A stretch of 7,341 bases of DNA from Planctomycetia bacterium (GTDB lineage: Bacteria; Planctomycetota; Phycisphaerae; Phycisphaerales; UBA1924). Position 1 is the stretch's first letter, and the number at the start of each line of letters is the position of its first letter. Both the position numbers and the translations under genes were made by a program. The stretch lies in NCBI GenBank assembly GCA_005776545.1, contig SXOY01000185.1, forward strand, positions 1 through 7,341, in the 5' to 3' direction. A model generated the notes under the pieces. The model ran no database searches. It saw only the letters and a program-made list of their open reading frames with translations, and was not told where the DNA came from. Below, in pieces: positions 2,109 through 7,341 of this stretch.

Positions 2109-2137
2109 TTGTCGTTGGTTCAATTCTGATGTATGCT
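2109..2137 (+). promoter_or_regulatory. Weak sigma70-like promoter ahead of the metal-type locus
   Basis: TTGTCG (2109-2114, 4 of 6 to consensus) and TATGCT (2132-2137, 4 of 6) are separated by exactly 17 bp. Transcription would start near 2144, inside the dyad at 2138-2157, which is a typical position for a repressor-controlled promoter. Planctomycete promoter consensus is poorly known, so this is suggestive only. Confidence 0.35.
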
Positions 2138-2157
2138 AATGAGAGAGGATTCTCATT
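2138..2157. promoter_or_regulatory. Fur/Zur-family-like operator dyad
   Basis: AATGAGA (2138-2144) and TCTCATT (2151-2157) are perfect inverted arms with a 6-bp spacer (GAGGAT). Fur-family boxes are commonly of the form AATGAGAAT-N-ATTCTCATT or TGA-N9-TCA. This site keeps both outer arms exactly but is one base pair longer in the middle (TGA-N10-TCA). It overlaps the predicted transcription start and the ribosome binding site of the first gene, consistent with metal-dependent repression of the whole run. The alternative is an RNA hairpin that presents the GAGG core in its loop. Confidence 0.45.
2142..2148 (+). promoter_or_regulatory. Ribosome binding site supporting the TTG start at 2157
   Basis: AGAGAGG lies 8 bases upstream of TTG 2157. 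The in-frame ATGs at 2133 and 2139 have no purine-rich sequence upstream (the preceding bases read TTCAATTCTGATGT), and both fall in or beside the predicted -10 element. This decides the start in favour of TTG, with moderate certainty. Confidence 0.45.
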
Positions 2158-2531
2158 TGGCGGCAAAGGCTCTCAATTCCAGTATTAGGTGTAGCCCCTT
2201 TATTGCGTGGTGCATTGCGGGTTTGCTCGCGTTTTTGATGACTTTGCCGCTTGTGCACGCCTCGGCCCATCAGGAATCCGAAGCGGTAGCAGGTCTGAAT
2301 TCAAGTTCCACAACACCCATTCCGGACCATCATGGGGATGACGATTCGGAAACGTGTGCCGAATGTCTTGTTCTGGTTTTCGGAAAGCACCATGGAACGG
2401 GAATTCCCTCGTCATGGGCGCAAGAGTTTTTTGGGGAATTTGGCATTGCCGCAGAAATCGCGGCAGAATCGCCTTTTGTCATCCGGCACACAATGCCGCC
2501 GCCATCGCGAGGCCCGCCGATCCTGATGTGA
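2157..2531 (+). CDS. Small secreted His/Cys-rich protein, DUF2946-like, putative metal binding
   Basis: With the TTG start, the product has 124 residues (132 from ATG 2133). A hydrophobic segment at about 14-33 is followed by A-S-A (35-37), a good signal peptidase site, so the mature protein should be exported. Right after it come potential metal ligands: H38, H58-H59, D61-D63, C67-x-x-C70 and H78-H79. The C-terminus ends in a Pro-rich R-G-P-P-like tail. A signal peptide, His/Asp-rich linker, one C-x-x-C and an (A/R)-x-P-P tail resemble DUF2946-type small proteins, which often sit beside metal genes; I base this on pattern, not alignment. Its position as first gene behind a Fur/Zur-like dyad supports a periplasmic metal-binding role (inference). 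It might instead be inner-membrane tethered if the signal is not cleaved. Confidence 0.65.
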   Translation: MAAKALNSSIRCSPFIAWCIAGLLAFLMTLPLVHASAHQESEAVAGLNSSSTTPIPDHHGDDDSETCAECLVLVFGKHHGTGIPSSWAQEFFGEFGIAAEIAAESPFVIRHTMPPPSRGPPILM

Positions 2532-2562
2532 GAGCGTCGAATTCGACTCAATCATCAGAATT

Positions 2563-2568
2563 GGAGTG
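2563..2568 (+). promoter_or_regulatory. Ribosome binding site deciding the pilin-like gene start
   Basis: GGAG (2563-2566) precedes ATG 2575 by 8 bases. The GTG at 2566-2568 would begin inside this motif and has no own binding site, so the protein should start M-I-R-K-R-R-G-F rather than three residues earlier. Confidence 0.6.
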
Positions 2569-2574
2569 ACTGTA

Positions 2575-4989: not shown

Positions 4990-6368
4990 CCGATCTTGTC
5001 ATTATCCGCCGCAGTATGCAGGCGAGGTTGTTCTCAACTGTTGTCACCGTACTCATGGTGGCAGTGTCGGTGGCATTGCTGCTGGTGCTGCTCACGATGC
5101 GTGATTCTGGACGCAAGGCCTTCGAGCGCGGTTCGGGCGACATGCACTTTCTAATCAGTGCCGACGCAAGTCCGCTGGTAGCGGTACTCAACGGCGTGTT
5201 TTACGCGAATGCGCCGCAGCGTCCCATCATGTGGGCGAAATTTGAATCGCTGAAAGCATCGCTGCCGCTCGAAACTGGTGGTCAAAAAGACCTTGTGCCC
5301 GGGTACGCAATTCCCACGCAGCAGGGCGACAGTTTCATGGGGTTGCCGGTGATGGCTACCACTCCGGAGTTTTTCACACAGTTTCGTCCAAGTCAGGATG
5401 AAGCGTGGGTGTTCAAAGATGGACGCGCATTTAGCAAGAGCTTTGAAGTCGTGCTCGGCGCGGCGGCGGCCAAGGTGACTGGTTTGCATGTTGGCGACCA
5501 GCTCTACCTTGTTCATGGAATGTCCACAAGCAAGGATGCGCCGCGTCCAAAGAAAGATGAACATGGAGATCATGCGCACGAAGGCGAACACGACCATGCC
5601 GCCGAAACTGCTGATCCAAATGCACATGTCCACGAAGAGTTCGTGTACACAGTGGTAGGGATTCTCGAGCCAACCGGCGGCTCTCACGATCGCGCATTGA
5701 TCACTGAAATTGAAGCGGCGTGGATCATTCACGCGCAGGATCGGCGAGAGAAAGCTGCTGGTGGGCATGTGGAAACGACCGCTGCGGATCTGCTGGCGGA
5801 GGATCGAAAGATCACTGGGATATATGTTCGCCTTGCAACGCCCGCAGGATCTGGTGCGCCCGCCAACTTTGCACAGGTAGGTTCGATGTTGCGTCGCGAT
5901 CCGACGATCACTGTCGCATCGCCTGCAGGGCAGATTGAACAGCTCTTTAAGATCGTTGGAAACATCGATCAGATATTTATCGCCATGTCCCTGGTGGTGA
6001 TGGTCTCAAGCGGCATTGCCATCATGCTCGCGCTTTACAACTCCATGGATCAAAGGCGGCGGCAGATTGCGATCTTGCGAGTGTTGGGTTCAAGTTCCAG
6101 CCGAATTTTCTCGCTGGTGCTGACTGAATCGGCTCTGATAGGAATGCTGGGGGCGGGGGCGGGGATAGTGCTTAGTCTCGCAGGGTCTGCGATTGCTGCC
6201 GCGACATTGAAGAAAATGCTCGGATTGGTGATCAGTTCTTCGATCGACCCACAAACGGCTGTAATGGTGGCGGCAGGGACAATTATCCTGGGGGCGATAG
6301 CGGGCCTCATTCCCGCGGCGATGGCGTATCAAACAAGCGTTGCCAAAAGTCTGAAACCTGTCTCCTGA
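4986..6368 (+). CDS. FtsX-type ABC transporter permease with His-rich extracytoplasmic loop
   Basis: The 460-residue membrane protein has the MacB/FtsX layout: one N-terminal membrane helix (about 17-38), a large extracytoplasmic domain (about 40-325), then three helices (about 328-350, 378-403, 424-447) with the conserved cytoplasmic stretch R-R-R-Q-I-A-I-L-R-V-L-G at 357-368 that contacts the ATPase. The outer domain holds a His/Asp/Glu-rich segment at about 190-218 (His at 193, 196, 198, 202, 204, 214, 216), followed by Y-T-V-V-G-I-L-E-P-T-G (221-231). This insertion just before V-V-G-I-L-x-P-T-G is typical of the FtsX-like permeases found with DUF3299 and zinc genes, and such His runs usually bind Zn, Ni or Co. 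Overlap with the ATPase gene by four bases implies translational coupling and a stoichiometric complex. The direction of transport and the metal are not shown by the sequence. Confidence 0.85.
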   Translation: MTDLVIIRRSMQARLFSTVVTVLMVAVSVALLLVLLTMRDSGRKAFERGSGDMHFLISADASPLVAVLNGVFYANAPQRPIMWAKFESLKASLPLETGGQKDLVPGYAIPTQQGDSFMGLPVMATTPEFFTQFRPSQDEAWVFKDGRAFSKSFEVVLGAAAAKVTGLHVGDQLYLVHGMSTSKDAPRPKKDEHGDHAHEGEHDHAAETADPNAHVHEEFVYTVVGILEPTGGSHDRALITEIEAAWIIHAQDRREKAAGGHVETTAADLLAEDRKITGIYVRLATPAGSGAPANFAQVGSMLRRDPTITVASPAGQIEQLFKIVGNIDQIFIAMSLVVMVSSGIAIMLALYNSMDQRRRQIAILRVLGSSSSRIFSLVLTESALIGMLGAGAGIVLSLAGSAIAAATLKKMLGLVISSSIDPQTAVMVAAGTIILGAIAGLIPAAMAYQTSVAKSLKPVS

Positions 6369-6399
6369 ACCTGCCTCGTGATAGGGTGCCAACAATGTA

Positions 6400-6430
6400 G
6401 TACGCGAGCACTGACATGCAGTCTGCGTAT
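6400..6430 (+). other. Intercistronic hairpin before the DUF3299-like gene
   Basis: TACGC, AG and ACTG on the left arm (6401-6413) pair with CAGT, CT and GCGTA on the right (6419-6429). This gives 11 pairs interrupted by two single-base bulges (G6406, C6409) around a 5-base loop, with a possible closing G-U pair at 6400/6430. It lies in the 78-base gap between permease and next gene, 7 bases before that gene's ribosome binding site. No T tract follows, so it is more likely an RNA processing or translational element than a terminator. Confidence 0.35.
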
Positions 6431-6446
6431 GTAAATTGAGGAAGAC

Positions 6447-7341
6447 ATGCGAAGTTTCTGGATAATCGTTGGGCTGCTGGTTGTGATCGCGGGCGCGTTT
6501 GCTGTGGTGCCATCGATGCGTGCCCGTCAGGAGCGTCTCGCGGCGGCGGAAGCTCAGCAAAAGGCCGAGCAGGAAGCAGAGAAGGCCAGGCTGAACGCAG
6601 AGAAAGCGCAGGCAGAAGCAGCTGCACAAGCCGCGGCGACGAAAAAAGAAGCCGAATCCAAGGCACAGTCAAACCCCCAGCCTCCGGTAGTTGTCATTGA
6701 AACGCCAACGCCCAAACCAGAAGAAACACCCAAAGAGAAAAAACCCGTTGAACCTGCACCAGTGAAAACGGTCGAGGTTCAACCAGATCCGGCGCAGAAT
6801 GCGGAGAAAACCGCCGCGGAATTGCAGAAAGTGTTGAGCGGGGAAGCGGCGCCCCCTGCGGTTGATACGCCGCCGGTGGCTAAGCCGAAGGTCGAAGAGT
6901 TCAAGTGGGTCGTTGAAACAGAAATGCCCAAGTTGGAATCGCGGCCTGATGGATCACAGAAGATTGATGATCGGTTTGTCGTGAAGGGCGAAGGAACCAA
7001 AGAAGACCCGTTCGTTGTGTCGTGGGAACACCTTGTGAGCATTCAAGAGGCGTTTGATCCTTCTCAGAAGAAGGACAGGATTCCTGCACGGCTTCATTTT
7101 ATTGATAATACATATGTGAAGATTACCGGGTATATTTGCTTTCCGCTGTATGTGCCGCAGCCCAAGGAACTGCTCGCAATGCTTAATCAGTGGGATGGAT
7201 GCTGCATTGGCGTTCCCCCAACCGCCTATGACGCGATTGAAGTTCAGCTTCGTAAAAAGGTCGATGAGGAAACGCGCTTTGCCGTGCACGGAACGATCGT
7301 CGGAAAATTTCAGGTCAAGCCCTACGTCACCGGCAACTGGC
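6447..7341 (+). CDS. Membrane-anchored DUF3299-like protein with coiled-coil stalk (3' end outside window)
   Basis: The frame is open from ATG 6447 to the window edge (298 codons, no stop), with a good ribosome binding site, GAGGAAG (6438-6444). Residues 4-21 form a single membrane anchor (W-I-I-V-G-L-L-V-V-I). Residues about 27-75 are an Ala/Glu/Lys/Gln-rich coiled coil of the TolA type. Residues 78-150 are Pro/Lys/Glu-rich. The C-terminal domain from about 152 has W-V-V-E, W193-E-H-L, V-K-I-T-G-Y-I-C-F-P at 224-233 and G-C-C-I-G-V-P-P at 251-258. G-Y/F-x-x-P followed by a C-C or C-x-H segment and P-P is the DUF3299 pattern. DUF3299 proteins accompany FtsX-type metal permeases in proteobacterial Zrg-like operons, with unknown biochemical role. 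C231 and C252-C253 are possible metal or disulfide residues. The long stalk suggests it reaches across the periplasm. Family assignment is by motif only. Confidence 0.7.
   Translation, partial: MRSFWIIVGLLVVIAGAFAVVPSMRARQERLAAAEAQQKAEQEAEKARLNAEKAQAEAAAQAAATKKEAESKAQSNPQPPVVVIETPTPKPEETPKEKKPVEPAPVKTVEVQPDPAQNAEKTAAELQKVLSGEAAPPAVDTPPVAKPKVEEFKWVVETEMPKLESRPDGSQKIDDRFVVKGEGTKEDPFVVSWEHLVSIQEAFDPSQKKDRIPARLHFIDNTYVKITGYICFPLYVPQPKELLAMLNQWDGCCIGVPPTAYDAIEVQLRKKVDEETRFAVHGTIVGKFQVKPYVTGNW

Follow-up and report, generated by a model that had tools for sequence, protein, structure and literature searches.

A candidate zinc-starvation operon joining a Zrg-like transporter set to a pseudopilin and a dockerin protein in a planctomycete

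Why should a pilin and a surface-type protein stand in one gene row with an ATP-binding cassette (ABC) transporter of a kind known from zinc-limited vibrios? The question is raised by a stretch of 7,341 nucleotides from a Planctomycetia bacterium of the Phycisphaerae (contig SXOY01000185.1, assembly GCA_005776545.1), hereafter the window, in which six co-directional genes encode a small secreted Cys/His protein, a pseudopilin, an exported dockerin protein, an ABC ATPase, a permease and a DUF3299 protein. A first-pass annotation had read this row as a metal-relay operon under a Fur-family repressor, and the gaps it gave (43, 25, 59, -4 and 78 bases) are exact with ATG starts. The six-gene operon is real and conserved, and it is most probably part of a zinc-starvation response. 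Our explanation of the whole, a zinc-starvation operon that makes a Zrg-like ABC set together with an exported zinc-carrying module, is put forward as probable, if well short of assured. The new part is the dedicated pseudopilin with its dockerin partner under a zinc-type operator; the kind of transporter is already known. All genome-wide results below refer to genomes of relatives, the window itself being confined to its 7,341 nucleotides.

Results and Discussion

A transporter core of the Zrg type

The ATPase matches ABC_tran at 99.5 bits (cut-off 25), and the permease matches FtsX at 50.1 bits (cut-off 25.5) and, just below the cut-off of 27, MacB_PCD at 26.9 bits. The two are encoded by separate, adjacent genes overlapping by four bases, as in Zrg-type systems, a correspondence drawn from family matches. 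The DUF3299 protein consists of an N-terminal hydrophobic stretch, a stalk rich in Ala, Glu and Lys and a domain with the motif QWDGCCIGVPP; cut by the window end, it scores 18.2 bits, below the cut-off of 22, and alone it has no match in the PDB. The family exceeds the Pfam cut-off in 14 of 20 genomes of relatives, and a profile of ten homologues, with the window protein first, has 4hsp (E 7.3e-4) as its only PDB match at E values up to 1. This entry is PA4066 of Pseudomonas aeruginosa, the counterpart of ZrgE (PMC8561739, in the part available). The family matches and the profile that finds 4hsp uphold the earlier assignment of these three genes to a Zrg-type core.

The direction of transport is another matter. 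The ATPase and permease may be a MacB-type exporter or secretion motor that exports a zincophore or the dockerin and pilin proteins, import proceeding solely via a ZnuA-type system, and we regard this as a possible but distinctly less likely reading. The permease profile matches YtrF, LolF and MacB chains by sequence, in agreement with its Pfam families, and a pseudopilin adjoining an exported protein fits a secretion role; in the available portion of PMC11481552, PA4064/4065 of P. aeruginosa is moreover modelled as MacB and argued to be an exporter acting on pyochelin. Set against this are the detachability of the exported genes from the transporter (see below) and the case of V. cholerae: in the available portion of PMC9820375, ZrgA is reported to be needed for normal growth under zinc deficiency when znuA is deleted, and it is interpreted as the binding protein that serves a ZrgBC importer. 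Given the case for export in P. aeruginosa, import by the window pair is open to dispute.

Synteny in relatives

An alignment of 24 permeases was used to fetch loci from bacterial and archaeal species genomes, and gene order was read by six-frame profile search in the best 80 of 181 loci, 74 of which bear planctomycete titles, mostly Phycisphaerae. A pilin of the window type, over most of its length, lies upstream of the transporter in 15 of the 80 (L002, L007, L008, L011, L012, L015, L022, L025, L033, L036, L043, L044, L046, L054 and L078), and a dockerin-type gene is present in 14 of these 15, so that the synteny anticipated for the two genes is indeed conserved in relatives; ten further loci match the pilin at the N-terminus only and hold other pilins. 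With the window counted there are 16 such loci, here called cassette loci after the small-pilin-dockerin gene set. The dockerin-type gene occurs in 15 of the 16 (not found in L022), DUF3299 likewise in 15 (not in L036), and a small gene with CxxC and an R-x-P-P end, by pattern search, in 13 (not in L012, L015 and L078). Several loci hold a second dockerin-type gene with a PEP-CTERM-like tail. Upstream, a PAS-LuxR gene is the neighbour in 13 of the 16 (a contig end cuts there in L022) and a LOG gene is found in 14; both are conserved neighbours of the system, and loci L003 and L009 keep the order LOG-LuxR-ATPase-permease without the small, pilin and dockerin genes.

The cassette is detached from the transporter in genomes G001, G024 and G028, and so is a second copy of it in G014. 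Because it can stand apart in this way, the exported genes are a module rather than an obligate part of the transporter system. Of 20 longer regions selected by their pilin, 10 contain the small gene and 2 contain transporter genes. In a quick tree of 81 permeases, cassette presence requires eight gains or losses over all rows, weak branches counted, and the window pairs with L001 with a Shimodaira-Hasegawa-like approximate likelihood ratio test (SH-aLRT) value of 99.

These occurrences apart in several genomes, and the absence of a window-type pilin from 65 of the 80 related transporter loci, are what could be said for the six genes being unrelated neighbours by chance, an explanation to which we give hardly any credence. 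The row is more than chance because it recurs in diverged genomes and because pilin and dockerin gene are almost always paired in the class sample described below; a single operator moreover stands at the operon head, and where transporter and pilin-dockerin pair lie apart, in G001, each half has its own box.

A few loci deserve separate mention. Contig G025:C29 (L189, L202) carries an apparently decayed copy of the cassette, with fragmented pilin and dockerin genes under a perfect box and without a permease; its ATPase gene is followed by what we take to be an argH-like gene. On G028:C41 (L199) a detached pilin-dockerin-second dockerin cassette lies tail to tail with another gene, presumably for an alkaline phosphatase. 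The permeases of L010 (titled Opitutaceae) and L028 (Vicinamibacteraceae) fall inside planctomycete groups, that of L010 being almost identical to that of L009, and perhaps come from misassigned bins. A gene of about 735 codons precedes the transporter in L020 and some similar loci, where there is no box; the L020 gene reads, we assume, like a RecG helicase, and the others were judged by length only. The transporter core thus does not always stand in a zinc context.

An operator common to a zinc-type binding-protein gene

Palindromes at the operon heads suggested the consensus TGAGAATNNATTCTCA. At up to two mismatches it has 18 sites in 1.353 Mb (81 sequences), all upstream of the system, and none in the reversed control; 17 are at the operon head, including those of L001, L006 and L038, which have no cassette, and one is inside L012 before the ATPase gene. 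Since the consensus was chosen on operon loci, the independent test is a genome scan, made on 20 genomes that were selected for having the cassette or the box, with L003 and L009 as controls. At up to one mismatch, 30 sites were found in 16 of the 20 genomes, one to three per genome, and again none in the reversed control. Thirteen of them stand at transporter operon heads and one at the detached pilin-dockerin locus of G001, as expected since the genomes were chosen for holding the system. Another 14 precede a metal-binding-protein gene, which is not expected from the choice of genomes; by a profile built from seven of these 14 proteins, the gene is full length in 13 cases and partial in one (L097). 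The best family of the seven binding proteins scanned is AztC (zinc) in six and ZnuA (zinc) in one, all below the equivalog cut-offs, and His-rich stretches are visible in several.

The box of the window (2140-2155) reaches 17.3 bits under a matrix made from 31 sites outside the window; no second site in the window exceeds 2.9 bits, and none of 100 shuffles attains the score of the box. Cassette and box co-occur (14 of 16 cassette loci vs 3 of 65 others), the detached pilin-dockerin cassettes of G024 and G028 also carry boxes, and a wider scan gave, among the matches listed, further binding-protein genes in G005, G014 and G025. Judged from these sequences, the palindrome TGAGAATNNATTCTCA is a probable Zur box and the metal most probably zinc. 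A metal-starvation operon, as the first-pass annotation had it, is thereby supported, and its choice of zinc or iron is narrowed by the operator common to the zinc-type binding-protein gene. The Fur-family repressor it proposed is supported in the form of this shared operator, which is of the Fur/Zur type; the eight open reading frames of the window, scanned against family libraries, include no Fur-family match.

That the operator belongs to a Fur or Mur regulator, the metal being iron or manganese, appears improbable. It would agree with what we take to be the general form of Fur-family boxes in the consensus, with the one to four genes per genome that match the Fur family as a whole, and with matches of the binding proteins to manganese MntC models, although the best family is zinc-type in all seven and the His-rich stretches point the same way. 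The related transporter operons are, in addition, Zur-regulated (PMC9817125, PMC11481552, in the portions available).

Two of the 30 sites lie elsewhere. A perfect box in G020 (G020:C83:7881; L101/L197) precedes a gene for a 332-residue PF13557 (Phenol_MetA_deg) protein, presumably an outer-membrane barrel and possibly an extra member of the zinc regulon. A one-mismatch box in G001 (G001:C35:1461; L099/L198) lies near a different pilin gene, of the DUF1559 type.

A dedicated pseudopilin and its dockerin partner

The window pilin matches N_methyl (PF07963) at 36.3 bits (cut-off 21.2) and has the prepilin cleavage/methylation motif, here RRG/FTLIE. H72, H198, H200 and H244 (numbered from the ATG at 2575) are invariant in 15 sequences, and the motif DHVH is encoded at 3163-3174. 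Twenty Phycisphaerae genomes gave 26-45 pilin matches each; a full-length relative of the window pilin is found in 16 of them (at E 2e-51 or better; 17 matches in all, since G014 has two), and the matches that follow, at E 9e-22 or worse, cover mainly the N-terminus. Other planctomycete prepilin-type proteins share the N-terminal motif, and DGH occurs in 18 of the 23 sampled, whereas DHxH, mostly together with L-x-HGG, marks a distinct full-length subfamily that includes the window pilin and is represented once or twice in each genome possessing it. [DE]HxH is present in all 55 window-type pilins read class-wide (30/30 and 25/25), while neither DHxH nor L-x-HGG occurs in 23 other pilin open reading frames (20 regions, same genomes). 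The structure model of the pilin is poor, with a predicted local distance difference test score (pLDDT) of 66.2. The literature searched gave no function for the many pilins of Phycisphaerae genomes.

The dockerin protein scores 27.5 bits against the GC-type dockerin NF041540, just below the cut-off of 29, which its homologues in L033 (32.8) and L002 (37) exceed; the domain is C-terminal (residues 207-260, encoded at 4025-4186). Its AlphaFold2 model is a beta-sandwich with dockerin helices (mean pLDDT 90.7), with generic structural neighbours. A near-invariant HxH lies at residues 141-143 (3827-3835): in 24 sequences G138 and H143 are invariant and H141 nearly so, and G..HxH is missing from two dockerin-type rows, which are the second paralogues in L033 and L046. 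In relatives, the second paralogues have a basic, PEP-CTERM-like tail where the window protein has its GC-type dockerin. The N-terminal domain is distributed like the pilin, most other matches listed being to the dockerin tail only.

The pilin profile was also run class-wide, over 298 genomes (six of them already sampled) with eight candidates scored in each, and gave at least 59 pilin matches in 55 genomes. In the 30 best loci, three of which (G011, G017 and G018) are cassette loci already counted, a dockerin-type gene lies directly downstream of the pilin in every case. The other 29 matches (28 regions) hold a full pilin by profile in 25 (not in L261, L275 and L276), with a dockerin-type gene in 22 of the 25. 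It thus adjoins the pilin in 52 of 55 class-wide loci, and pilin and dockerin protein are a nearly fixed pair across the class sample. The pair could instead serve adhesion or another surface role and have no dealings with zinc beyond being expressed when it is short; the conserved, subfamily-specific histidine pairs in both proteins and the recurrent linkage to the transporter make this an unlikely account.

GC-type dockerin tails as such are very numerous in G001 and G014 (at least 131 matches each), other genomes having few or none.

Comparison with known systems

The order small protein-[binding protein]-ATPase-permease-DUF3299, the probable Zur-type control and the homology of the DUF3299 protein to ZrgE liken the system to ZrgABCDE of Vibrio, as described in the available portions of PMC9817125 and PMC9820375; when zinc is limiting, expression of the V. 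parahaemolyticus operon (zrgD-zrgA-zrgC-zrgB-zrgE) rises 76- to 206-fold (PMC9817125, Table 1). The window differs in having a DUF2946-like small protein, a pseudopilin and a dockerin protein in place of ZrgA/DUF2607, and many of its relatives also carry the second, PEP-CTERM-like paralogue. No ZrgA (PF10986) was found by Pfam among the eight window open reading frames or in the 20 genomes, but neither was it found in 14 control genomes. DUF2607 (ZrgD) is not among the families listed for 15 small proteins, the presence of a DUF2607 model in the library being unconfirmed. P. aeruginosa PA4063-PA4066 likewise combines an ATPase, a separate MacB-like permease and a DUF3299 protein (PA4066) under Zur; four genes, without a pilin or dockerin gene, are described in the portions available (PMC11481552, PMC8561739), and PA4063 (ZrgA type) has no match in the window.

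The closest idea to the window system is that of ZepA (All3515), a zinc exoprotein under Zur that is also reported from the PVC (Planctomycetes-Verrucomicrobia-Chlamydiae) superphylum (PMC10957091, in the part available). Like the window dockerin protein, it is exported and has a beta-sandwich, a histidine site, a surface-sorting tail and a Zur box, which in the window is a probable one. The window protein differs in its GC-type dockerin in place of PEP-CTERM, and the ZepA motif H-X2-9-H-F/Y-H occurs in none of 24 dockerin-type proteins, window included; the two are set apart by motif and tail. No description of such a pseudopilin-dockerin zinc system was found in the portions of the literature searched.

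A probable course of events and the evidence against it

A zinc-loaded, Zur-type repressor, postulated because the operator is common to the zinc-binding-protein gene, would occupy the palindrome at 2135-2160, which lies across the start of the first gene, and come off once zinc runs out. Both the Zrg-like ATPase/permease/DUF3299 set and an exported module standing in for ZrgA would then be made from the operon; the module would consist of the small Cys/His protein, the DHxH pseudopilin and the Sec-exported beta-sandwich protein with HxH and a dockerin anchor. Scarce zinc would most likely be bound by the dockerin protein and the pseudopilin, at the surface or in the outer envelope, and handed on inward. 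Driven by ATP, the MacB-like ATPase/permease would act from the periplasmic side on these carriers, loading or unloading them or moving them, and a classical ZnuA-type importer under the same box would take the zinc into the cytoplasm. Synteny, operator, the sharing of the box with a zinc-type binding-protein gene in relatives and the conserved histidines are read directly in the sequences; Zur as the regulator, the binding of zinc, the location and the direction of transport we infer from them.

Several observations weigh against this course of events. To our knowledge, FtsX/MacB-type permeases are not known as importers, and the case made for PA4064/4065 as an exporter, noted above, counts here as well. 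The His-rich loop of the permease (encoded at 5517-5624), which the first-pass annotation had counted as a part of the relay, is not a constant part: four or more histidines were counted in 2 of the 16 cassette loci, in 2 of 3 loci that are split or have the box only, and in 3 of the 62 others. In one binding protein, that of L115, manganese MntC outscores ZnuA, not AztC. The genome scan at up to two mismatches is unclean, with 99 sites in 34 of 36 genomes vs 11 in the reversed control; at this threshold the box is absent from the other two, G015 and G017, both cassette genomes (those of L044 and L054, with a three-mismatch site in L044), and the second cassette copy in G014 has no clear box. 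With relatedness removed, the link between cassette and box comes down to three supported independent pairs and is not significant. Finally, upstream of the class-wide pilin-dockerin pairs, a box at up to two mismatches stands in 7 of 30 cases (1.5 kb read) and in 1 of another 25 (1.2 kb read). Most other pairs are without this box, so that the evidence for zinc control covers one part of the family; in the rest, either the operator has another form or Zur does not control the pair in every case. Of the metal-relay reading as a whole, the Zrg-type metal-starvation operon, the synteny and the operator have held; the His-rich loop as a constant part has not, and the cassette is a separable module.

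The pilin and surface protein beside a Zrg-type transporter point, as far as sequence can tell, to an undescribed handling of scarce zinc at the cell surface. Through an operator common to a zinc-type binding-protein gene, one pilin subfamily and its partner would gain a testable function, zinc starvation, and the prediction is easy to test because there are one to three strong boxes per genome in most of the genomes scanned. Because this lineage keeps the ATPase, permease and DUF3299 protein and seems to swap ZrgA for exported surface proteins, the system also bears on the dispute whether Zrg and PA4063-4066 are importers or exporters, and it shows which Zrg parts are constant. A bolder idea, to which we assign a low probability, is a dedicated zinc pseudopilus. 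The pseudopilin and the dockerin/PEP-CTERM exoproteins would together build a zinc-binding apparatus at the surface that can be extended, takes up zinc from outside the cell and carries it in; the Zrg-type ATPase/permease would be its motor or unloader. If true, this would add a new class to the known metal-acquisition machines, one in which pili do the work of diffusible zincophores or TonB receptors.

The small protein and the layout of the window

The coordinates of all features are collected in Table 1.

Table 1. Genes and predicted operator in the window, with the evidence for each.
Feature	Position	Strand	Evidence or remark
LOG-family gene	426-1205	-	TIGR00730 match
PAS-LuxR regulator gene	1406-2074	+	GerE PF00196, 49.9 bits; synteny
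Zur-type operator (predicted)	2135-2160	.	core 2140-2155 TGAGAGAGGATTCTCA, 2 mismatches to TGAGAATNNATTCTCA
Small secreted Cys/His protein	2157-2531 (TTG start, preferred); 2133-2531 if ATG	+	open reading frame call, alignment
Dedicated pseudopilin	2575-3381	+	PF07963 (N_methyl), conserved His
Exported dockerin protein	3407-4195	+	NF041540 match, alignment, AlphaFold2
ABC ATPase, zrgC-like	4255-4989	+	ABC_tran, synteny
FtsX/MacB-type permease, zrgB-like	4986-6368	+	FtsX, profile match
DUF3299 protein, zrgE-like	6447-7341	+	cut by window end; PDB match 4hsp

Since the palindrome lies over the ATG at 2133, the small gene may start at the TTG at 2157 instead. One His, CxxC and the C-terminal R-x-P-P of its product are invariant in 15 sequences. 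The window protein matches DUF2946 over nearly its full length at 12.3 and 12.8 bits (cut-off 23.7), and among the 15 homologues DUF2946 is found in 12 at E values up to 10 and CopL in 3 at E values up to 1, all below threshold. This DUF2946/CopL-like protein occupies the place of Vibrio zrgD.

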